Source: a virus
DNA: 53,646 bases
Direction: 5' to 3' (one strand)
Virus record (IMG/VR): IMGVR_UViG_3300033004_000003
Location: 1 to 53,646 of that record
Made by a program: the position numbers and the translations under genes. Below the pieces are notes generated by a model. It ran no database searches and had not been told where the DNA came from. It saw only the letters and a list, made by a program, of their open reading frames with translations. Of this stretch, positions 17,935 to 47,241 are shown in pieces; the first letter of the stretch is position 1; every line of letters starts with the position of its first letter.

Positions 17935-18458
17935 TGCCCGCAGGTAATTCATATCCAGCACCTAATCTCCCCCTGACTGGCGCTGAACAATTCACGCTGT
18001 TTCAGCAGCAAGGCTCAATCGTAGCGACGTGCACGGCGTCAATCTCTCAGCTTGCGGTCTCAATCGCTGCAAGTTCATTTTCGTCTCCCCCCCCAATTGG
18101 CAGCACAACGCCAAACACTGGCGCTTTTACTGATCTGACAGTTACAGAATATCTTGCTACATCAATTACGACTGGAATTGTCGCATCTGGAGCATCTCAG
18201 TCAACAGCTACGCTATTAACGACACAAATGAACGTCGTTAATAATGTCGGTTCAGGGACCGGAGTTTTGCTTGAGCCTGTTTCGGCGGGAACGTTCGTGC
18301 GCGTATTCCATCGCGCATCTGGTGGACACACGCTATCTGTCTATCCGCCATCGGGGCAGCAAATAGAAGCCTTGGGAACAAACAGCCCCTCTGGTATGAT
18401 ATACGGGCAATCGAATGATTATTGCTACGTTGGGAGCAACCTGTGGCTCGTGAAATAA
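17934..18458 (+). CDS. Fibre-region protein B with beta-sandwich C-terminus
   Basis: Product of 174 aa, TAATG overlap. The N-terminal 45 aa duplicate the preceding gene; a linker (SSPPPIGSTTPNTGAFTDLT) follows, then a beta domain from about residue 75 (LEPVSAGTFVRVFHRASGG, LSVYPPSGQQIEALG) ending in YCYVGSNLWLVK. This resembles the small C-terminal domains of phage tail-fibre proteins. Its stop overlaps the fibre gene at 18458. Confidence 0.6.
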   Translation: MPAGNSYPAPNLPLTGAEQFTLFQQQGSIVATCTASISQLAVSIAASSFSSPPPIGSTTPNTGAFTDLTVTEYLATSITTGIVASGASQSTATLLTTQMNVVNNVGSGTGVLLEPVSAGTFVRVFHRASGGHTLSVYPPSGQQIEALGTNSPSGMIYGQSNDYCYVGSNLWLVK

Positions 18459-21400
18459 TGAAGAGATTTATCGCCGTGACTGCCGTTCTTGTAGGCGGCG
18501 TTGCCTACGCGCAGCCTATTCAGGGGCCATTAGAGGCGCAAAACTCTCTTGCGGAAATCACGGCGAATGGAACTCAAGCGACCGCCAGAAGCAATATTTC
18601 CGCCGCCGCAAGCGGTGCGAACTCCGACATTACGTCACTTACCGGCCTGACTACTCCGCTTGGCGGTGCTTACGGAGGGACTGGCATTAATAACGGATCG
18701 AAGACGATTACTCTGGGCGGATCACTAGCAACGTCTGGTGCCAATCCGCTGACGTTTACGACGACCGGCACGACTTCGGTAACTCTGCCGACCAGCGGAA
18801 CGCTGTTTTCCAGCGCATCAAGCATTCCGTATACAAATCTGCCGGCATTGTCAGCTAATCAGGTGCTCGGTTCTCTCACGGCAACCACACCTAGTGGCTT
18901 GTCGGTTCCTGCCTGTACGGGCGCTAATGCTGCGCTACAATGGGGCGCGGGCGCCGGATTTGGGTGTGTGACGATCAGCTCGGGGACAAATGCGCCAGGT
19001 GGGGCAAATACGAATGTCCAATATAACAACTCAACTGCATTCGGCGGCAATTCCAGCTTCACTTATAATGGCTCCGGCAGCATCGGGCTGGGAACCAGCG
19101 GTTCGACCACCGGCAATATCGCCTTCGCCAACGGCACAAGCGGCGTAGTCAATCTGACCGTCCCGACTGGCGCGCTTGGCACGGTGACAGATTATCTGCC
19201 GCTTGGCGGTACGCTGCTTACGCTCGGCACAGCGAACAATACCTATGCAACGCTGGGAGCGAACTCCAATATTACCAGCTTAACCGGGCTGACAACGCCT
19301 CTTTCCTCGTCTCAGGGCGGCAGCGGTGTGAATAATGGCTCTACCACGGAGACGCGCGCCGGCAATGTGACGTTTAGCGGTGCATATCCGGTTACACTTA
19401 CGGCGACGGGATCGACTGGCGTTACTCTGCCAACGACCGGCACTCTGCTGAATAACGTGGCGTCCAGCGTTAATACTGTAGTTGGTGCAGCATCCTCGAC
19501 GACGCGGACCGATCTGTCCGTGCCGTCCTGTTCCGGCTCGTCTAACGCGCTCCAATGGACTTCCGGTACCGGCTTCGGGTGCGGCTCCATTACCGGAACA
19601 GCGGCAACGCCTGGCGGCTCTACGGGACAGGTGCAGTACAACAACGCAGGTGCATTTGCGGCAGCGCCAGGCTTCACGTTCGACGGGTCTAGCGCCATCG
19701 GCCTCGGTGTCGCCGGTTCGACCGTCGGTAAAGCCGTGTTCAGCAACGCCACAAGCGGCTCGATCACGCTTCAAGCGCCTACGGGCGCGTTGGGGAGTGT
19801 AACGGATACGCTCCCGGATGGGGGTACGCTTCTCACCACGACTGGTAGCGGCGCGAGCCTGACGGGCGTGGCGTTCAGTGGTGCCAATAGCAATATCACG
19901 TCTTTGTCTGGATTGACCACCGCACTGTCTCCTTCCCAAGGCGGCACCGGCATAAACAACGGTTCAAAAACGGTTACGCTTGCAGGGAATTTAGCAACGT
20001 CCGGCGCGAATTCTCTGACGCTTACGACGACCGGCACAACTAATGTGACTATGCCGACCAGCGGAACTCTACTGAACACGGTAGGAAATTCAAGTTCTAC
20101 CACCGTGGAGCCATCCGACGCGACAACCGCCGTGTCTTTAGCAAACTTCTTTGATGAGACCAAAAATGTCTATTCTTATGGCGCAACTGGAAACGGTGTT
20201 TCCAATGACCTTGCGGCGGGGAATGCGGCTGCTGCTGCCGCTTCGTCAAGTGGTCAGGTTGTTTACTATCCGCCAGGGTCTTATAATTTTGGGGGAAGCA
20301 CTGGAAATACCGAAACAAACGATCCTCTAAACCTGCTCATCGGAGCAAGCTTCCCGAACGGCGCGCCTTTCGGATGCACCACGCAATTGTTCAATAATCC
20401 ATCGTTTGATCTGTGCCAGGCAATGAACGTCCAGACAGGAAATCAGTTCATGCAGGATGATACTGGCATCCTACAGCCGACCGCCGCGACAAATCCGGCA
20501 TATGAGAAAAACGTATTCAGCGCTTTTATGCAGCAAAACGATAGCAGCCCTGACTGGGCTTCCGGTGATACCCATGATGGCGTTGCCGTATTTGGTGACG
20601 CGACCATGGGGGCAAGCGTTGCTCTTGGCCGCGAATGGGGCGCAAATTTCGTAGCTAATAGCACTATGTCTGGCGCTGATGGGCTTCTGACTGGTATTGA
20701 GGTCGATATCGAGCCCGGTATAGCGCAGACGGCTCTTAATTCCCCCACATCTAAAGTAGGGTATACGGTTTTCAATCTCGGATCAGCCGAAGCGACAGCA
20801 GGCATGATCATTGGTGCGAACACATCTGGCGGCCCGACAAATGGCTTTTACAATGGCCTCGTATTCCAGTCATCCAATGATTTTGGAGGGGATGCTTGGG
20901 GGTTGTATAATACAGGCGGTAACTGGCCCGCTTGGGTAGATAATGCAGGGAGCGAAGGCGTAAACGCGCTGATTATTGGAGGCACCCCGCCATCTGGAGC
21001 TACGCCATCATTCCCGAGCCAGACGAATGGCACACTATCTGTCACATCGAGCACCACGGGCGCTATAGCTACGTTCACTGATACCGCCGCAAATGGTGCG
21101 ACCATTGCCATTACTGGGAATGGAGGAACAACTCCACATAAATTTTTGGCAGTCGGTAGCGGAAATCTATATATCAACAATAGTGCGGATTCTGGTCATA
21201 TTCTAACCCTGACTGATGCCGGAACATTAACCGTCCCTGCCGATATGCAATCGGCAGGGTTTGCGTTAACCAACCTCATGAATTATACAACAATTCCGAC
21301 GATCGCTTCCGGTTTTGGTACATCTCCATCAATTTCAAATGCAAATGGTACTGCTGCGTTTGTGTTGACGGTCGGTTCCAGCCCAAACGATACCGGCACC

Positions 21401-21595
21401 ATTACGATGCCTGCCGCCGCTCATGGGTGGGCTTGTGATGCGCAGGATGAATCCACAGTAAACTCCACGGTCTTCATGACTAGAGAGGTTGGGAATAGCA
21501 CGACATCCGTCACATTCGATCAGTTCAACAGTTCCGGTGTTGTGCAAAATTGGGCGGCGGGCGATTTATTGGTGATAAAATGCACGGCATTCTAA
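18458..21595 (+). CDS. Tail fibre/spike-like protein with signal peptide
   Basis: Product of 1045 aa from ATG 18458 (TAATG overlap); an upstream start at 18422 would bury the signal. Residues 1-19 form a Sec-type signal (MKRF, hydrophobic IAVTAVLVGG, cleavage after AYA). Three long repeats follow (about 40-540) built on ITSLTGLTTPL..GGTGINNGS and TTGTTSVTLPTSGTL. From about 565 comes a pectate-lyase-like start (VYSYGATGNGVSND ... VVYYPPGSYNFGG). The C-terminal 95 aa form a domain also found at 38270-38571, with Cys in GWACDAQD and VIKCTAF. A secretion signal on a phage fibre is unusual. Confidence 0.75.
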   Translation: MKRFIAVTAVLVGGVAYAQPIQGPLEAQNSLAEITANGTQATARSNISAAASGANSDITSLTGLTTPLGGAYGGTGINNGSKTITLGGSLATSGANPLTFTTTGTTSVTLPTSGTLFSSASSIPYTNLPALSANQVLGSLTATTPSGLSVPACTGANAALQWGAGAGFGCVTISSGTNAPGGANTNVQYNNSTAFGGNSSFTYNGSGSIGLGTSGSTTGNIAFANGTSGVVNLTVPTGALGTVTDYLPLGGTLLTLGTANNTYATLGANSNITSLTGLTTPLSSSQGGSGVNNGSTTETRAGNVTFSGAYPVTLTATGSTGVTLPTTGTLLNNVASSVNTVVGAASSTTRTDLSVPSCSGSSNALQWTSGTGFGCGSITGTAATPGGSTGQVQYNNAGAFAAAPGFTFDGSSAIGLGVAGSTVGKAVFSNATSGSITLQAPTGALGSVTDTLPDGGTLLTTTGSGASLTGVAFSGANSNITSLSGLTTALSPSQGGTGINNGSKTVTLAGNLATSGANSLTLTTTGTTNVTMPTSGTLLNTVGNSSSTTVEPSDATTAVSLANFFDETKNVYSYGATGNGVSNDLAAGNAAAAAASSSGQVVYYPPGSYNFGGSTGNTETNDPLNLLIGASFPNGAPFGCTTQLFNNPSFDLCQAMNVQTGNQFMQDDTGILQPTAATNPAYEKNVFSAFMQQNDSSPDWASGDTHDGVAVFGDATMGASVALGREWGANFVANSTMSGADGLLTGIEVDIEPGIAQTALNSPTSKVGYTVFNLGSAEATAGMIIGANTSGGPTNGFYNGLVFQSSNDFGGDAWGLYNTGGNWPAWVDNAGSEGVNALIIGGTPPSGATPSFPSQTNGTLSVTSSTTGAIATFTDTAANGATIAITGNGGTTPHKFLAVGSGNLYINNSADSGHILTLTDAGTLTVPADMQSAGFALTNLMNYTTIPTIASGFGTSPSISNANGTAAFVLTVGSSPNDTGTITMPAAAHGWACDAQDESTVNSTVFMTREVGNSTTSVTFDQFNSSGVVQNWAAGDLLVIKCTAF

Positions 21596-25252: not shown

Positions 25253-25723
25253 ATGAGCGAAGTCCGCATAGCAACGCCAGCCGACCGTGACGGGATGATT
25301 GATCTGCTGCACATGATGTACGCCGAAAATGGCGTTGCGTCATTGAGCGTGCAAAAGATGTTGGCGTTTCTTGATCGAGGGTTAGCGCGCGATTACTCGA
25401 TCATCGGCATTGTCGAAGATGAAGGTGTGATAAAGGCGAGCATTGGGCTTTTCCTGCACCAATGGTGGTACAGTGAAGATTATCACGTTGAAGATACGTG
25501 GTGTTTTGTGCATCCAGATTACCGGAAGTCAACTTATGCCAAGGACTTGCTGAAGTTCGCCAAGAAATGCGCGGATGATCTTGATATGCAACTGCTGATT
25601 GGCATCCTGTCTAGCGAGAGAACTGCGGCCAAGGTTCGGCTTTACGAGAAAGAATTTGGTCCTTCAATGGGATGTGGATTTGTTTACCCGCATCCTCGGG
25701 CAACTGATAAGGAAGTCGCGTAG
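25253..25723 (+). CDS. GNAT-family N-acetyltransferase
   Basis: Product of 156 aa from ATG 25253 after AAAGGATTGAGC; TTG 25247 is the upstream alternative. The GNAT fold is visible: VRIATPADRDGMIDLLHMMY (strand 1-helix 1), SIIGIVEDEGVIKASIGLFL (central strands), then VHPDYRKSTYAKDLLKFAKK in the acetyl-CoA-binding position and FGPSMGCGFVYPH. It lies among virion genes, as in other podoviruses, so it may acetylate a virion or host protein; substrate unknown. Confidence 0.8.
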   Translation: MSEVRIATPADRDGMIDLLHMMYAENGVASLSVQKMLAFLDRGLARDYSIIGIVEDEGVIKASIGLFLHQWWYSEDYHVEDTWCFVHPDYRKSTYAKDLLKFAKKCADDLDMQLLIGILSSERTAAKVRLYEKEFGPSMGCGFVYPHPRATDKEVA

Positions 25724-32900: not shown

Positions 32901-33021
32901 AGCAACTGCCGCCGTGTTGCGGAAGTATTCGGATAAGCCCAGCGCCATTAAGCAGTTTACGCGCTCAATGGCTAAGATTATTCTCGCCCACCAAGCTCAA
33001 CCGCAAGGCCAGAACCAATGA
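29932..33021 (+). CDS. Large internal (ejection) virion protein
   Basis: Product of 1029 aa, starting right after the previous stop. N-terminus Pro/Gln-rich with two LSQFSQVATPLPG/MGQFQKAAQPLPG copies (about 8-60). Then a Gly/Ala-rich hydrophobic segment (about 178-245: GAASGLGSIAGGALASAVG, WGSLVGGFGAAGAGALASKA) that could insert in a membrane, followed by hundreds of residues of charged helix. A C-terminal block (LHSINPLEAMVGVGEAAPFP, NRVQAAQRFLAKTL) ends the chain. Together with the 1402-aa protein it fits a DNA-ejection complex. No enzymatic motif seen. Confidence 0.7.
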   Translation: MPLDQSVLSQFSQVATPLPGGNTPAQTPQQLFNAPQPQQQGAPISSVMGQFQKAAQPLPGTSAPDDQQPTGPPQRGGFFRNVAAGVLGVPQEIADVGKTFYERTFNPEYQPTLPTSAGQKEYASRGANVRYGFTPNSTPLTPVPEANIPGVTPFIQGTTQKGPMDYVGQGIGQMLPMALAPEAEAGLLVRGAKAAATGAASGLGSIAGGALASAVGAPRQAGEFWGSLVGGFGAAGAGALASKAGLGAQGLSEIAPVTQGMQERYAASKIRQFGGENIGQQVEAARGTQPIVPGSMPTAAQAARSPELARLETALTESGQGVYLQEAQAAQGAARSAHIQGAQFTPEQAEAARISGVAPTPGTPSNLSEYLTQARATDEQNLASPIAVAEQSRAAGINEPLMATPGAKQPALASVANAPEAYQAGAALRAPISAGDQTRQIATSRLYKALDERNPVLNMAPMADATGAIQKNIEEAGLQNVSGDEKNIYQRAQEMGQSDGVTWKKVNGFRAELNDAVTSSIDPKTGRSTASTARLQGLKRATDDAINTAIDRHVEQNPDVYQAPLAEQARLWKQAKTQDERQAAISGQGSTGTPQGNLATYGQPSGAGRVGAAPGTMGAQPTGLPNAPGAGGMAQRGAEGSINPEWSQEDVDNYREALKSHAQRMGLYWNKYISPILATDPGGDFRMPDEAVIKAALPGGDKSRQAAKLIKSIAADKPSVLDAYGQAMALSLRNAAVKDGVNVDQNALNRWMENHSGMLSVFPEVAQKVRNIKGAQDMVEKATAAREAGLEQYNHRAIQGILNGDDPEVAMKTVMGGSPSDARKFMATIQKNPAAIAGARAAAANNLVDRLVKSGDKPDARIASLEAILRDPKQRQNMGIVLGPQAEIALRRVLEDERATNSYALARAAKAGSPTAFYGAAKEELQRPTTWLGSILHSINPLEAMVGVGEAAPFPVRAAVGVFDSILRNFSTNRVQAAQRFLAKTLTSPEATAAVLRKYSDKPSAIKQFTRSMAKIILAHQAQPQGQNQ

Positions 33022-33803
33022 CCACCACATTCACCCCAAACCGAAACTACTCCCTTCCCGGAACCGGCGATGACGTAAACTCATGGGGGCCGGTTATCAA
33101 CGCGAATTTTAGCGCGATTGATAGCAATATCTCTGCCCAGAATATTATAACCACGACTGGCGGAACTACGACGCTCACGACGGCACAGGGCGCTAATTTA
33201 TATTTCCCAATTACCGGCGCCCTCACGTCGAACGCAACAATCATATTCCCTGGCACTGCCACATTTTTCTTCGCGTCCAACCAAACCACAGGGACATATA
33301 CGACAACTTTGTCTGCCGCTGGCGGCGGGGCTAGTGTTGTTCTGCTCCAAGGAACTGCTGGCGTTTTCTGGACCGACGGCACGAATATATACCAAGTTGG
33401 CGGCGCTCCCGTAAATTCTATCCCATCTGGCACCATCATGGGTTCGTTCTTGCAGGCTAGCGCCCCTACGGGATGGGTTCAGATCAATACGTTCAACGAC
33501 CAGGTTATCCGTGTGGTTAATAACACTGGGACAGGTGGCGCGACGGGCGGCTCTTGGACCGTGAGCGGGTTTAACGACAATCCAATCGCGCTGACGATCG
33601 CGCAAATTCCATCGCATAATCATACGATTGAACTTAATATCAATGGGCATGTAGCGGCTGGCGGAAGCCTTGCTCCAGGTGAAAACACAGGGACATTTAC
33701 GACAGATAATACTGGCGGCGGCGGAACTCACAATCACGGCGTTTATAATGACGGCACTTGGAGGCCAAGTTTCGTGAACGCCATCGTTTGCCAGAAAAGC
33801 TAG
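33018..33803 (+). CDS. Tail fibre with collar-type HxH domain
   Basis: Product of 261 aa, ATGA overlap. N-terminus NYSLPGTGDDVNSWGPVINA and NFSAIDSNI is the usual virion-attachment block of short fibres. C-terminal part: PSGTIMGSFLQASAPTGWVQ, then IPSHNHTIELN and THNHGVYND, ending WRPSFVNAIVCQKS. Paired HNH triplets bind metal in phage collar/short-fibre trimers. It likely forms a host-binding fibre. No signal peptide, unlike the next fibre-region genes. Confidence 0.8.
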   Translation: MTTTFTPNRNYSLPGTGDDVNSWGPVINANFSAIDSNISAQNIITTTGGTTTLTTAQGANLYFPITGALTSNATIIFPGTATFFFASNQTTGTYTTTLSAAGGGASVVLLQGTAGVFWTDGTNIYQVGGAPVNSIPSGTIMGSFLQASAPTGWVQINTFNDQVIRVVNNTGTGGATGGSWTVSGFNDNPIALTIAQIPSHNHTIELNINGHVAAGGSLAPGENTGTFTTDNTGGGGTHNHGVYNDGTWRPSFVNAIVCQKS

Positions 33804-33811
33804 GAGAAATC

Positions 33812-34135
33812 ATGGCATATCGAAACGCAAATAACTGCAAGAAATGCCCCAAAAATAACGGGCCTGATGGATGCCCTTGGTGGTGGGAATACACAGAAAC
33901 CAATGCAAGCGGCGAAACTCGTATCACGAAGGAATGCGGCATCGCGGCGCTGCCTAAATTTCTCGGTCACGTGCTGGCCGCGAGCAATCGCCCTGCTGCG
34001 GCCATAGAAAGCACACGAAACGCTTTAGTCGAAGCGCTAAACGGTGTAGGGCAGGTACTGGATAAGCGCATAGATCAATCGGTCGCAAAGCTGGCGCAAG
34101 ATAGCGTGGCGCTGATAGGAAAAGACAATGCGTAG
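33812..34135 (+). CDS. Cys-rich small protein
   Basis: Product of 107 aa from ATG 33812 with GGAGAAATC. Residues 8-21 carry CKKC..N..DGCPWWW and a further Cys in TKECGIAALPKFL, suggesting a zinc or disulfide knuckle; the rest is an amphipathic helix (STRNALVEALNGVGQVLDKR). No family recognised. Between two fibre genes. Confidence 0.55.
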   Translation: MAYRNANNCKKCPKNNGPDGCPWWWEYTETNASGETRITKECGIAALPKFLGHVLAASNRPAAAIESTRNALVEALNGVGQVLDKRIDQSVAKLAQDSVALIGKDNA

Positions 34136-34595
34136 TTTATGGATCGCTGTATTTCTTCTGTTTGCGCCTATTGTCGCACATGCGCAATCCACGCCTAATC
34201 CCGTATCAACGTGGTGCGCGTCATCCGCCGCAGGTCCGTGGACGCCTTGCGTTGGTAGTGGAGGCGGCTCCCCGTCATCGCCATCTTACATCAAGCCCGG
34301 CACATATACTGAAGTACCTCTCGATATTGCTACAACCACATCAGCAAATGTTGCTGTTGCGGCTTTAAGTGCCGGGCATCGATCTGCCGGCGGGTGGATA
34401 CAAAATCCGCCAACGGCGACAACCGTCATCTGTGTGAATACGATCACCACAGCGGCTTTCTCCAGCGGTGCATGCATCGGCAGCAACAATGCGATTTCTC
34501 CGGGGCAGGTATTTAATATCCCGGCCAATGCAAATGCGGTCTCGGTTGTATCGTCTGATGCAACGCATCCGTTTAGCGGGGAAGGGTTGCAGTAA
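34128..34595 (+). CDS. Secreted small protein of the fibre cluster
   Basis: Product of 155 aa. Residues 1-19 are a clear signal peptide: MRS, hydrophobic LWIAVFLLFAPIV, cleavage after AHA. Mature part Gly/Ser/Thr rich and beta, with Cys in STWCASS, TPCVGS, VICVNT and GACIGS, so two disulfides are possible. No family recognised. It overlaps both neighbours (8 bp before, TAATG after). Confidence 0.65.
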   Translation: MRSLWIAVFLLFAPIVAHAQSTPNPVSTWCASSAAGPWTPCVGSGGGSPSSPSYIKPGTYTEVPLDIATTTSANVAVAALSAGHRSAGGWIQNPPTATTVICVNTITTAAFSSGACIGSNNAISPGQVFNIPANANAVSVVSSDATHPFSGEGLQ

Positions 34596-36172
34596 TGAAA
34601 AAGCTATTCACCACATTATTTCTGCTGTTGTGCGCCCCTACCTTCGCGCAAGTTCAGAACGCTGGCGGCTTCGGCCCTGGTCCAACTCCCGGCATCGCAG
34701 CCAATGGCGGCACCGGCAACAACATCACTCTGAACGGCACCACGAACATCACGGGCAGTGCCAGCAACGCCGTGACGCAGCCGCCTGTGGATAATACCGT
34801 CCGCATTGCCACCGATCAGTTTGTGCAGTCCCTATTCGCCGTCACGCGCTCTACCGTGTACCTCTCCGGCGTGACAGGCGGGACGCTGAGCTTTGCCTCC
34901 GTCGGCACCGGGGCGGCGTTCAGCTTCACCGCGACAGGCGGCGTTATTACGTCCATCGATTCCGTATACGCGGGCGGCTCCGGCTACAAAGTCGGCGACG
35001 TGCTGTATATACCGCGAGGCAACTATGACAACTATATCATGGTCACGGGGGTTTCCGGGACCGCGATCACGTCGGTCAAAATCCTCAATGGCGGCACCGG
35101 CAATACGAGCGGCCTCGACATTACCGCAATGGCGGCTATCGAAGCGCCGATTATCTACAATATATCCGGCACGCTTACTTCCAACCTCCAGGTCATCGCC
35201 TCTAACGGTGCGGTGCTTGGCTATTCCGGCATCTTCCTGCTCATCAACAATACCACGGGCAACTATACCGAGAGCGTTTGCATCAGCAACGGCTCTGACG
35301 CCTGCAACGGCAACGGCAGCGTGGTTATCCCCCAGGGCAGCGGGAATAGCTGCGCCACTCTGACATATACGGATGGCTCTACGCCCTGGCTGGTGTCTCC
35401 TACGGAGTGTGGCGCGGCGCAGTTTGCCTCGGTCAATCTTGGCTCCAACGTCTCCGCCGCTAACTGGTCCACCACAAGCCCGATGTTCAATGTCCCGGCC
35501 ACCACGCTCACGGATACCACGGGCAGCGGAACGATTGCACTGCGCGCGGCGGAGACGATTAATAACTGCACGTTTGCGGCGTCGAGCAGCGAGACGATCA
35601 CGAATGCGGCGTGTTTGTATGTAGGAAGTCCTGCCAACGGAACGAATGTAACGGAAACAAGCAGCTATTCCATTTATGCAACTGGAGCCATTGATACTAC
35701 AAGCAATTTGGTTGCTTCAGGTAACATACTCGGAAATAGCGTACAGGCTACCGGAAATAATTCCGTTGATGCTGGTATTAACAGGCCATCAAGTCACACA
35801 TTAGGATTTCAAACTAGCGCAACCTCAGCTGGTGTGATTGACGCAAACCAAAACTGGCGCATCGGCGGCGCCGGTACGCCTACCATATCCAGCGGCGCAT
35901 GCGGCACAGGCACCAATGGCAGTATCGCAGCAAATGGTAACAATCAGGGCTTTGAAGTTGATATCGGCTCTGCCGCCACAACTACCTGCACGATTACTTT
36001 TGCCAATTCTGGCTTTGTGACAGCGCCGCGAGAGGCACAACTTACCGCGCACAACGCCGCCGCCGCAGCGCAGGGCACAACGCTCGCCTATGTAAGCAGC
36101 CTCGGAACCACAACGATGGTGATTACCGGGAGCGCCCTAGCTAATGCCAATTATTATGTGCAGGTTCAATAA
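34595..36172 (+). CDS. Fibre-like protein with signal peptide
   Basis: Product of 525 aa. Signal peptide at 1-18 (MKKLFTTLFLLLCAPTFA, then QVQ). It continues with Gly/Thr/Ser-rich beta repeats, including ITSIDSVYAGGSGYKVGDVL and VKILNGGTGNTSGLD, typical of tail-fibre shafts. Codon bias changes sharply near 35640: before it third positions are GC-rich, after it AT-rich, so the gene looks like a recombinant. The C-terminus holds SSGACGTGTNGSIAANGNN and TTTCTITFANSGFVT. TAATG overlap on both sides. Confidence 0.65.
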   Translation: MKKLFTTLFLLLCAPTFAQVQNAGGFGPGPTPGIAANGGTGNNITLNGTTNITGSASNAVTQPPVDNTVRIATDQFVQSLFAVTRSTVYLSGVTGGTLSFASVGTGAAFSFTATGGVITSIDSVYAGGSGYKVGDVLYIPRGNYDNYIMVTGVSGTAITSVKILNGGTGNTSGLDITAMAAIEAPIIYNISGTLTSNLQVIASNGAVLGYSGIFLLINNTTGNYTESVCISNGSDACNGNGSVVIPQGSGNSCATLTYTDGSTPWLVSPTECGAAQFASVNLGSNVSAANWSTTSPMFNVPATTLTDTTGSGTIALRAAETINNCTFAASSSETITNAACLYVGSPANGTNVTETSSYSIYATGAIDTTSNLVASGNILGNSVQATGNNSVDAGINRPSSHTLGFQTSATSAGVIDANQNWRIGGAGTPTISSGACGTGTNGSIAANGNNQGFEVDIGSAATTTCTITFANSGFVTAPREAQLTAHNAAAAAQGTTLAYVSSLGTTTMVITGSALANANYYVQVQ

Positions 36173-38571
36173 TGAAAAAACTCATCGCAGCTATTTGGCT
36201 TCTTGCAACTCCGGCGCTCGCCGCCAATTATGCCAGCCCGACATATAACAACATCACGACCACCGGAAATATCACATCAAACAGCGGAAAAATCATCGCT
36301 GTTGTCCCTACCGACGCGGCGCTAAAGGCTCTCCCACTGACGGGATTTAGCGCCGGAACCATTGTGCAGGATACTGGATATTATGCTGATGGAGATATGC
36401 CGCCTGTCGAGTATTCGCTGCAAAACTCGGCATGCTCGCTGAATGCTGGCGCGGGTGATGGCGGATCGCAAATCCCCTCCAATACCTCTGGACACTGCTG
36501 GGTTTTGACGCCGCAGAATAGCTACGACGCGCGCATTTGGGGTGTGGTAGCGGATTATAATGGGACGACCGGGACCGAAAACACGACGGCGCTGGCGAAT
36601 GCTATCTCGTTCGCGGAAGGAAGCGCCGTCCAGGGTGCCGCACGACACCTGACACTGCCTGCTGGTGAAATCCTCACTGGGGCGCAAACGGTAAATGGTA
36701 GTATCAGGATAACCGGCGCTTCTGCGATTGCAACCACGCTTGTTCTGAAAAGCGGCGTCAATGCTCCGATCCTCACGACACTGATCACTAGCACAACGGG
36801 GCCATACGCGACAGCGCCCGAGGTGTATTATTCTGATCTATATCTCACCAGCGTTGATGGTCAGTCGGCAGTTAGTGAGACGGGTGCTTACGGCCTATCC
36901 TTCCCAAGCGGCGGCACGAACACTTTTGTATATCTCGACCGCATCAGCGTGGACAATATGCCGGCCGACGGTATAAACGGACATGGGTTCGTCGGATTTG
37001 TGCGCGCGAGTGTCGTGTACCTGCGCGCAAACGGAGGCAACGGCCTTTCCAGTAATTCCGACGAGGATTGGATACTCATAGGGGCCAATATTGACGGCAA
37101 TACCAGCAACGGCATCTTAAGCTCCGGTGACGGTCAATTTTATCTGAATAACATAAACTCGTTTGACAATCACGCAAATGGCGTTGAATTGTACGGGCAT
37201 GAAGCGGTAACTTTCGACGGCCACAACGAGTTCAACCTGAACGATCAAGATGGACTGCTCGTCGCCAACCAATCAAGCGGCAGCAATCTTTCCGTGATCT
37301 CTTTTAATGGGAATGTTGTGTTTGGGAATAACTCGTACACCGCTCCTAATACCTATTCAGCTATCGAGGTAAAGGGTGGCAGCGGAGCAGTCATAAACCT
37401 GCTTGGTGCATCGTTCATTGCTCCTTACGGGCAAAATTCCAGCAACCAAGAGAAATATAACGTCAATTTCACGAACTCCACGACAAATAATGTTTTTTGC
37501 GTCTCGTGTAATTTCTCTGGAGGATCTGGCGGGGCTTATGTCACCAACAACTTATCGCTACTAAATACGCTAGAATTTCCGTCTTCCGGCTCAGGCTGGA
37601 CGGTTAATGGTGCGCTGGCCGTTGCAAATGGAGCGACGTTTAACGGCACAACGAGTTTCGTTGGTGATTCTACGTTTGGAAGCACAGCCAGCTTCGCAGG
37701 GGCGGTTCAGCTGGGCGGCGGAATTAATGCCGGCAGCAACAATGTCCAAGTCACAGCCTCGACTCAATATCGAGGAATTACCGTAAGCAACGGGACGAAC
37801 ACGATTGCAGCAATCCAGGGCCATTCGTCCACAAACGATAATGGCGTTTTAACGCTGTATAACTCTGGCGTTCAGTCCGTTTCTATCGGCGGAACTGGCA
37901 GTAATTCGTTGTCAAATACGCTTTTATTAGGATCACCCGCTTCTGGATCAACGCCGGGAAATGGGCAGGTGCAGGCGCAGGCTGCGTCTGGTACAAATAT
38001 CAACGGCGGATCATTATATCTAATCGGATCGCTCGCTACAGGCACCGGCATTGACGGTGACATTGTGATAAAAACCGGCACCAACCCGGGATCGTCCGGT
38101 ACGACGCAGGCTACCGCAAACACTGCCGTGACGATTAAAGGAGAGACGCAAGCCCTAATCGCCAATGCGGGCTTGGAGGTTGGCTCCCCATCCGGCACTT
38201 TTGAAGGCACCGGCACAACCAATCAAGCTTCCGATTTCTACCTCAACGGCAAGAAAACCATGAGCGAAACGGCGTCTACGATCTCGTCCGGCTTCGGAAC
38301 TGGCGATGCGATCTCCCAGGCTAACGGTGATGTGGCGTTTGTCGATACCGTTGGATCAAGTTCCGGCTCTACGGCAACCTTCACAATGCCAGCCGCGACT
38401 AACGGATGGGATTGTTCGGCCTACGATCAGACAACCAATACGATTGATATTGTCCAAAGTGGTCAAACATCAACTAGCATCACCTTTAAAAGCTACCTCC
38501 GTACCACTGGGGCACTGACCGCCCCTACGGTAGGTGATGCTATCCAGATCGGTCCGTGTGTGGGGCATTGA
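36172..38571 (+). CDS. Tail-spike-like pectate-lyase-fold protein with signal peptide
   Basis: Product of 799 aa. Residues 1-18 are a signal peptide (MKKLIAAIWLLATPALA, then AN). Residues about 120-470 follow the right-handed beta-helix plan: YDARIWGVVADYNGTTGTEN, TALANAISFAEG, LTLPAGEILTGAQTV, then many Asn/Gly turns (DGNTSNGILSSGDGQFYLN). Such folds are used by phage depolymerases. The last 95 aa (ISSGFGTGDAISQANGDVAF ... GWDCSAYDQ ... IQIGPCVGH) match the C-terminus of the 1045-aa protein. Enzymatic activity is not shown by motif alone. Confidence 0.75.
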   Translation: MKKLIAAIWLLATPALAANYASPTYNNITTTGNITSNSGKIIAVVPTDAALKALPLTGFSAGTIVQDTGYYADGDMPPVEYSLQNSACSLNAGAGDGGSQIPSNTSGHCWVLTPQNSYDARIWGVVADYNGTTGTENTTALANAISFAEGSAVQGAARHLTLPAGEILTGAQTVNGSIRITGASAIATTLVLKSGVNAPILTTLITSTTGPYATAPEVYYSDLYLTSVDGQSAVSETGAYGLSFPSGGTNTFVYLDRISVDNMPADGINGHGFVGFVRASVVYLRANGGNGLSSNSDEDWILIGANIDGNTSNGILSSGDGQFYLNNINSFDNHANGVELYGHEAVTFDGHNEFNLNDQDGLLVANQSSGSNLSVISFNGNVVFGNNSYTAPNTYSAIEVKGGSGAVINLLGASFIAPYGQNSSNQEKYNVNFTNSTTNNVFCVSCNFSGGSGGAYVTNNLSLLNTLEFPSSGSGWTVNGALAVANGATFNGTTSFVGDSTFGSTASFAGAVQLGGGINAGSNNVQVTASTQYRGITVSNGTNTIAAIQGHSSTNDNGVLTLYNSGVQSVSIGGTGSNSLSNTLLLGSPASGSTPGNGQVQAQAASGTNINGGSLYLIGSLATGTGIDGDIVIKTGTNPGSSGTTQATANTAVTIKGETQALIANAGLEVGSPSGTFEGTGTTNQASDFYLNGKKTMSETASTISSGFGTGDAISQANGDVAFVDTVGSSSGSTATFTMPAATNGWDCSAYDQTTNTIDIVQSGQTSTSITFKSYLRTTGALTAPTVGDAIQIGPCVGH

Positions 38572-38622
38572 CCTACAGGAACCCCTTGCCGAATTACACA
38601 CTATCCATGTAGGATTGTGCAC

Positions 38623-38856
38623 ATGAACGCCACCACCGGAACCGTAGTCGGGACGTCTGGAGCCAGCACAATGCTGGCTACGGTGCTTGTCTGGCTGCTG
38701 TCTCTGCGCGGTATCGTCGTTCCGGACGACGTGGCGCTAGCGTTTACCGGCCTGTTCACCATGGCCGCGCATTATCTCGTCGCATCTCATATCCAGAATA
38801 CCGCCACTGGTGCAGGCGGTACGTCTTTAACCGCACCGCAAGGAAATCAGTCATGA
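38623..38856 (+). CDS. Putative holin (two-helix membrane protein)
   Basis: Product of 77 aa from ATG 38623 after TAGGATTGTGCAC; GTG 38617 is an alternative. Two hydrophobic segments, STMLATVLVWLLSLRGIVV and ALAFTGLFTMAAHYLVAS, are joined by a short DD turn, with a polar tail. The size and topology suit a class II-type holin, and it begins the membrane/lysis block. Not confirmed by family. Confidence 0.55.
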   Translation: MNATTGTVVGTSGASTMLATVLVWLLSLRGIVVPDDVALAFTGLFTMAAHYLVASHIQNTATGAGGTSLTAPQGNQS

Positions 38857-46421: not shown

Positions 46422-47029
46422 GTGTTGTCTTCCATCCCAGAGGCAATTTCCACGCCGCGACCAGCCGAAGCGGCAAGCGACAACAGCGCATCCTTGTGCG
46501 CCTTCCAAAAATTAGCCGATCGCAGGCCGTCCATCTGTGCGATACGTCTATCGTCAAAATCGCGCCATTCAGAGAGTACGTGCAGCTCACAGCCGATCTG
46601 CATGTGGTCGTCCAGGATCGTCACAGAATAATCAAGGCCGTAAAGCTGCAGCGGGCGCTTATTGATAATGATGCCATCGCTCCACTTGGCGTTCGCGAGG
46701 TAGGCGCCCGCGAGGTAGGCGCCCGCGAGGTAGGCGCCCGCGAGGTTGGCGCCCACGAGGTAGGCGCCCGCGAGGTTGGCGCCCGCGAGGTTGGCGCCCA
46801 CGAGGTTGGCGTCCGCGAGGTTGGCGTCCGCGAGGTTGGCGCCCACGAGGTTGGCGCTCGCGAGGTTGGCGCCCACGAGGTAGGCGCCCGCGAGGTTGGC
46901 GCCCGCTTCAACTGCCTTCTTCACGGCAAAGCCGAGCTGGAAACGATATTCTTTGCCCGCGACATCGGCGGAAAGTTCGCACTCAAAAATCACTGCGCCG
47001 GTAAAACGGTTTTTAATCTGAAACATCAA
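46418..47029 (-). CDS. Pentapeptide-repeat protein
   Basis: Product of 203 aa. Residues about 44-115 are some fourteen A-[NDY]-L-x-x pentapeptides ([20 protein letters not shown] and on), which form a right-handed quadrilateral beta-helix (PF00805). N-terminal 40 aa: [21 protein letters not shown]-terminal 80 aa ([35 protein letters not shown]) follow a layout often attached to phage pentapeptide proteins. Some family members mimic DNA; here function is unknown. The 15-bp DNA repeats are very similar. Confidence 0.8.
46689..46909 (-). repeat. 15-bp tandem repeats coding pentapeptides
   Basis: About fourteen near-identical 15-bp units (GAGGT[AT]GGCGCCC[GA]C on the top strand). Differences fall mostly at one or two positions. 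Such an array can expand or contract in steps of five residues. It also opens a long meaningless ORF on the other strand. Confidence 0.85.
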
Positions 47030-47241
47030 ACTTCCTCCTTAACTTCCATCCCAGCGGCAACCCGCCGCAGTTTCACACGCGCCACAGCAGCGCGCATGAG
47101 CAGTTCCAAAGCCGCGCGCTCCATCGGACTGAAATCGTCTGGCGCGTGCATCCGAGCGATCGACAGGTCGCGCTCGAACGCCTCGGCCTCTTCCAGCGCC
47201 TCATCGGCATAGATGCTGGCTATCATGGTGGCGGCGGTCAT
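47026..47241 (-). CDS. Small hypothetical helical protein
   Basis: Product of 71 aa, ATGA overlaps. [20 protein letters not shown] then [20 protein letters not shown]; acidic then basic helices. No family recognised. Confidence 0.55.

Follow-up and report, generated by a model that had tools for sequence, protein, structure and literature searches.

Predicted Sec signal peptides and paired cysteines in fibre-like proteins of a virus record from IMG/VR

In the standard account, tail fibres are made in the cytoplasm. Three fibres with a documented place in virions carry no signal peptide (SP) and have 1, 0 and 4 Cys, respectively: JC1 gp56, which appears in a mass spectrometry table in PMC9144972, phiM5 gp19, whose database record bears the note 'detected in phage particle proteome', and 7-7-1 gp102, reported in virions in PMC3517404. 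From Bdellovibrio, phage-fibre-like proteins with an N-terminal signal peptide and a role outside the cytoplasm are described as mosaic adhesive trimer (MAT) fibres, in which, according to PMC10769870, the S74 peptidase domain is present in 13 of 21 cases and missing in 8 of 21. Additionally, GenBank notes on the tail fibre/spike proteins of Bcep781 and Bcep1 read 'possible signal peptide domain', so a signal peptide on a fibre had already been noticed. Known already are, in short, fibre/spike proteins and an annotated signal peptide on one of them; in the literature searched, a limited collection consisting partly of excerpts, we found no paper dealing with clusters of exported phage fibres and no description of a clustered, disulfide-rich exported class.

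Here, we describe four proteins encoded in a virus record of IMG/VR that is 53,646 bases long (hereafter the window, meaning the whole stretch of DNA analysed), which on sequence grounds are very probably late fibre- or spike-like proteins with true Sec/signal peptidase I signal peptides, and which would be exported to the periplasm, cleaved, oxidised and released at lysis. The host of the virus appears to be soil bacteria, and its podovirus-type gene set, including a terminase, a portal and DNA-ejection and transglycosylase matches at 25723, points to a podovirus.

Signal-peptide genes and their surroundings

Three of the four genes lie in a run spanning 33018-38571, in the order conventional fibre, small four-Cys protein and three SP-bearing genes, followed by a holin-like gene; the fourth lies upstream at 18458. 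Proteins are named below by their start positions, and the SPs are those called by our rule, with predicted cut sites.

18458..21595, + strand: SP-bearing fibre-like protein, 1045 aa; 8 mature Cys in four local pairs; shared C-terminal domain
18458..18511, + strand: predicted signal peptide of 18458, MKRFIAVTAVLVGGVAYA, next residue Q
21290..21592, + strand: shared C-terminal fibre-tip-like domain of 18458, with Cys 993 and 1042
22353: virion structural protein / head-closure-type gene
33018..33803, + strand: conventional collar-type fibre without SP, 1 Cys
33812..34135, + strand: small SP-less protein with four Cys (CxxC...C...C); its stop overlaps the start of 34128
34128..34595, + strand: SP-bearing protein, 155 aa; 4 mature Cys (30/41, 102/116)
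34128..34184, + strand: predicted signal peptide of 34128, MRSLWIAVFLLFAPIVAHA, next residue Q
34595..36172, + strand: SP-bearing fibre-like protein, 525 aa; 8 mature Cys
34595..34648, + strand: predicted signal peptide of 34595, MKKLFTTLFLLLCAPTFA, next residue Q
36172..38571, + strand: SP-bearing tailspike-like protein, 799 aa; 6 mature Cys (88/109, 443/446, 748/796)
36172..36222, + strand: predicted signal peptide of 36172, MKKLIAAIWLLATPALA, next residue A
36286..36660, + strand: tailspike head region of 36172, Cys 88/109; common to Bcep781 gp49 and relatives
38215..38568, + strand: shared C-terminal domain of 36172, residues 682-799, with Cys 748 and 796
38617..38856, + strand: holin-like gene directly 3' of the SP run, PHROG 9284

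The genes at 34128, 34595 and 36172 overlap one another stop-to-start, and the family matches of their neighbours place the SP-bearing genes among virion and lysis genes. The N-terminus of the conventional fibre at 33018 resembles that of phiM5 gp19 (E 2e-6), the protein at 33812-34135 has no Pfam or PHROG match, and a scan of the window for promoters and terminators gave a result at chance level. Elsewhere in the window, a predicted ORF at 46496-47212 contains a repeated 10-residue peptide and may be a simple-repeat artefact.

Signal peptides were called with a custom rule (not SignalP) requiring a positive n-region, an 8-residue core with a mean hydropathy of at least 2.0, small residues at -3/-1 and no acidic residues, which was run over all six frames of the window on each ATG reading frame of at least 60 aa. 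The rule passed at 6 starts, namely 18458, 34128, 34595 and 36172 and, nested within a single minus-strand shadow ORF (78-93 aa), two more; it thus picked all four starts for which a preliminary description of this DNA had claimed signal peptides and, in agreement with that description, found none on the collar-type fibre at 33018. The same description gave all four proteins an A-x-A cleavage site, which is correct for 18458, 34128 and 36172 and not for 34595, where the site is T-F-A. Among automatic gene starts the rule passed in only 3 of 75 called genes because 18458 had been called at an upstream start, its ATG lying inside a longer TTG ORF that begins at 18422. The rule yields some false positives, such as BcepIL02 gp62. 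Judged by the rule, all four proteins have the features of Sec/signal peptidase I substrates (positive n-region, hydrophobic core, small -3/-1 residues), and no lipobox was seen in them by eye.

Database searches gave little for the four proteins: Pfam gave no match to E 1 except Agarase_CBM at 0.2, PHROGs offered no useful family, a PDB sequence search with 18458, 34595 and 36172 was empty, and tblastn of 18458, 34595 and 34128 against the phage collection returned no matches. BLAST among the fibres of the window run without composition filters was discarded, as its matches were composition-driven, and the fold matches of a full-length AlphaFold2 model of 36172 were set aside because the model was poor (pLDDT 48.5).

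Cysteine parity, signal turnover and cleavage sites

The mature parts of the proteins at 18458, 34128, 34595 and 36172 have 8, 4, 8 and 6 Cys in close pairs, and the one additional Cys of 34595 is located within its signal peptide. For these 26 mature Cys, the within-pair gaps sum to 264, whereas the random mean is 1072 (p ≤ 5e-5). An even-Cys preference is used as a metric for exported Burkholderia proteins in PMC7678975, and we surveyed parity in plus-strand ORFs of at least 100 aa from loci L001-L093 and the window. Once edge-cut ORFs and five duplicate loci had been removed, the set came to 656 ORFs and, after a 50% identity filter, 419.

Among the Cys-containing proteins of the filtered set, an even count was found in 52 of 57 with an SP (taken without lipobox) versus 110 of 243 without SP and domain (Fisher p 3.6e-11). 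By class, the even counts were 24/25 for SP-bearing proteins with the C-terminal domain, 28/32 for other SP-bearing proteins, 3/3 for those with a lipobox and 5/9 for SP-less proteins with the domain. After linking anything at 30% identity, the counts were 27/30 with SP versus 98/210 without and, for proteins with at least two Cys, 27/29 versus 98/158 (p 9e-4); by eye, two of the four odd-Cys SP-bearing proteins of the 50%-link set resemble lipoproteins. Pair spacing outside the window was a weaker signal, with 13 of 21 SP-bearing and 20 of 59 SP-less proteins at or below the 20th percentile. Even, paired mature Cys are a signature, here read from sequence, of predicted disulfide folding outside the cytoplasm, although even numbers can occur in cytoplasmic fibres too.

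The behaviour of the signal itself can be followed in two relatives of 34595, L003:9123 and L002:4336, to which its residues 32-287 are 92-93% identical. In alignment columns 35-280 of the three proteins, 231-240 of 246 residues are identical (94-98%) with DNA identity of 0.86-0.89, whereas in columns 1-34 only 10-13 of 33 residues are identical and DNA identity falls to 0.47-0.52. All three nevertheless retain an SP despite unrelated SP DNA; what appears to be conserved at this N-terminus is the physical character of a signal and not its sequence, which argues against a docking interface.

Cleavage sites were surveyed in proteins chosen solely by K/R plus a hydrophobic core and then scored for [AVST]xA followed by a polar residue. 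Such a site was present in 29 of 41 domain proteins versus 5 of 23 in the 60-99 aa size class (p 2e-4), and in 17 of 36 other proteins of 100-299 aa and 14 of 23 of at least 300 aa.

These data bear on the options of the preliminary description, which were secretion, assembly onto virions in the periplasm, and virion anchoring by the hydrophobic ends. As for ends that stay uncleaved and anchor the proteins in virion or membrane, N-terminal hydrophobic helices are indeed present, the poor model of 36172 showing one at residues 2-17, and a short SP-like protein of BgManors32 has a C-terminal membrane segment; we nonetheless regard anchoring as very unlikely, since the SP sequence turns over without docking-type conservation and the proteins have cleavage-type sites and even, paired Cys. 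The option of export, in turn, is strongly supported as a prediction by the same SP turnover, peptidase-type sites and even, paired mature Cys.

Relatives of the head region and of the C-terminal domain

The head region of 36172 matches Bcep781 gp49 and Bcep43 gp48, the latter 99.9% identical to the former, and a head profile built from the window and Bcep781 finds 8 viral loci. Five of the 8 have an SP by rule and two more (L097 and L101) by eye, L098 having no clear start, and mature Cys are even in all 7 head-family proteins with a start. In the fibre/spike proteins of Bcep781, Bcep1 and BcepNY3 the SP was read directly and mature Cys are even (14 or 4), and in these three phages and in Bcep43 a baseplate gene is found two genes away from the one for the fibre/spike. 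A motif FxPGQxLTAAQLN follows the SP in Naesvirus fibres and also in an 87 aa protein of BgManors32 (UEW68647; L110 2491-2754), where it is followed by the C-terminal membrane segment.

Of 50 loci with SP genes, 15 have tandem runs of at least two of them (L059 repeats L058). The longest run seen, at L058 5657-11475, comprises five consecutive SP genes with 6, 8, 18, 4 and 6 mature Cys. At L003 10716-12596, within the run of predicted exported proteins there, lies an SP-bearing protein of 626 aa with a GQSNAEG start, which we take to be an SGNH/esterase-like motif.

The C-terminal domain, which takes up residues 682-799 in 36172 and also closes 18458, has relatives in 183 viral-contig stretches, of which 80 were kept, and at 3 loci in genome contigs, two counts obtained with differing sets of search patterns. 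The 3 genomic loci include Caballeronia calidae LMG 29321, where the SP-bearing domain protein is within a phage-like region, and they could suggest that the proteins are lysogenic-conversion genes (morons) altering the host surface. This we consider highly improbable: the genes are placed inside the structural and lysis region, 183 relatives from viral contigs stand against 3 from the genome collection, with differing search patterns, and no integrase or resolvase family match was found in the window, a record that may be incomplete.

Cys pairs within the domain were compared in 61 domain proteins, with 5 edge-cut ones dropped and SP taken from the automatic call. The complete pair occurs in 34 of 38 SP-bearing and 7 of 23 SP-less proteins, and in five of the latter seven (L015, L038, L051, L053 and L091) an SP is apparent that the start call or the rule did not pick up; by eye, some SP-bearing members have the pair shifted to neighbouring columns or a second pair added. 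The link is not phylogenetically independent, however, as 13 of the 23 SP-less rows form one clade and the tree gives only 2 independent pairs, so it is only suggestive, and a phylogeny-aware test of SP against Cys pair was set aside as underpowered. The clade (L057, L063, L066, L067, L070, L071, L076, L080, L081, L083, L085, L089 and L090) consists of short domain proteins of 156-186 aa that lack both an SP and the pair's first Cys.

AlphaFold2 run on 55 domain sequences predicted, at pLDDT 88.6, a beta-sandwich whose strands carry Cys 748 and 796. Its fold matches include the Pam1 tailspike (Z 6.2), AP22 gp53 (6.1), the R1 pyocin fibre (5.9) and LKA1 gp49 (5.7), in a comparison in which unrelated glycosidase domains reach Z 6.8.

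Possible fates of the predicted exported proteins and comparison with known systems

From signal character, local Cys pairing and operon position, we infer late, Sec-exported, disulfide-closed fibres. During infection the host would export the fibre/spike proteins by Sec to the periplasm, the signal peptide would be cleaved, and host DsbA-type oxidising machinery would close the paired Cys there; the fibres would then accumulate in the periplasm until holin-triggered lysis, encoded just downstream, freed them with the virions.

Given export, it is close to an even prospect that the fibres join progeny virions at or after lysis. The fuller account, which we hold with a little less than even confidence, is that exported, oxidised periplasmic spikes meet tail-complete particles as the cell lyses or later, their binding being the final step of assembly. 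Such loading fits the location of the SP genes, which have virion genes around them and a conventional fibre as neighbour, the likeness of head and tip regions to tailspike or fibre parts, and the Naesvirus SP fibre encoded near a baseplate gene. It also fits that particles of P22 can take up tailspikes in vitro. Loading is harder to reconcile with the four mature N-termini, which by eye have no common docking segment, with the ordinary SP-less fibre that the window already has at 33018, and with the virion fibres of JC1, phiM5 and 7-7-1, whose lack of an SP means that the SP-bearing class cannot simply be taken to belong to virions.

Action free of virions, again given export, is also quite possible, though somewhat short of an even prospect. 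In its specific form, which we hold tentatively, the exported fibres would be periplasmic or released adhesins or depolymerases that mask or strip receptors on debris or neighbours, or exclude rival phages. One phage may encode several SP proteins with different bodies (four in the window, five in a row in L058), the L003 run has its esterase-like SP-bearing member, and Bdellovibrio provides, in PMC10769870, a precedent for exported phage-fibre-like proteins used off the virion; the genes, however, lie in the late virion region and not in an early or accessory one.

Returning to loading onto virions, its broader implication would be a division of virion assembly, with capsid and tail made in the cytoplasm and disulfide-locked fibres or spikes passed by Sec through the periplasm, the two being joined only at lysis, a scheme that we put forward with more reserve still. 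If it is true, progeny infectivity would depend on the host disulfide machinery at production. Further, an exported, disulfide-locked class would change the annotation of receptor-binding proteins in uncultured soil phages, would favour periplasmic, oxidising hosts for their expression, and would mean that the disulfide machinery of the host plays a part in how phages are produced. The combination of a signal peptide with even, paired Cys is a simple sequence test for more members, and the cultured Burkholderia phages of the Bcep781 group can serve as a test bed for the exported-fibre idea.

Among known systems, JC1 gp56, phiM5 gp19 and 7-7-1 gp102 are, like the genes of the window, tailed-phage fibre genes in virion gene regions, but differ from the window's SP proteins in having no SP. 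The C-terminal domains of AP22 gp53, R-pyocin fibre tips and the Pam1 and LKA1 tailspikes show a middling fold likeness to the window domain (Z 5.4-6.2) at a sequence identity of 9-17%, and Z below 8 may mean a common arrangement only. Bdellovibrio MATs share with the window's SP proteins a tail-fibre-like mosaic make-up starting with a signal peptide; they differ in being bacterial genes with a beta domain of ~130 aa after the SP and often S74. Pfam to E 1 gave no S74 domain in the four SP proteins, and the PDB search with 18458, 34595 and 36172 gave, at sequence level only, no MAT-type beta domain of ~130 aa.

The closest comparison is with the Naesvirus phages. These differ from the window in being myophage-type, with tail chaperone and baseplate genes, and in that one SP fibre was seen per phage and no run, and the shared C-terminal domain was not found in their SP fibres. 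On the other hand, Bcep781 gp49, Bcep43 gp48, Bcep1 gp51 and BcepNY3 gp50 are, as in the window, 'tail fiber/tail spike' proteins with an SP and even mature Cys, and Bcep781 gp49 has the same head region with paired Cys as 36172.
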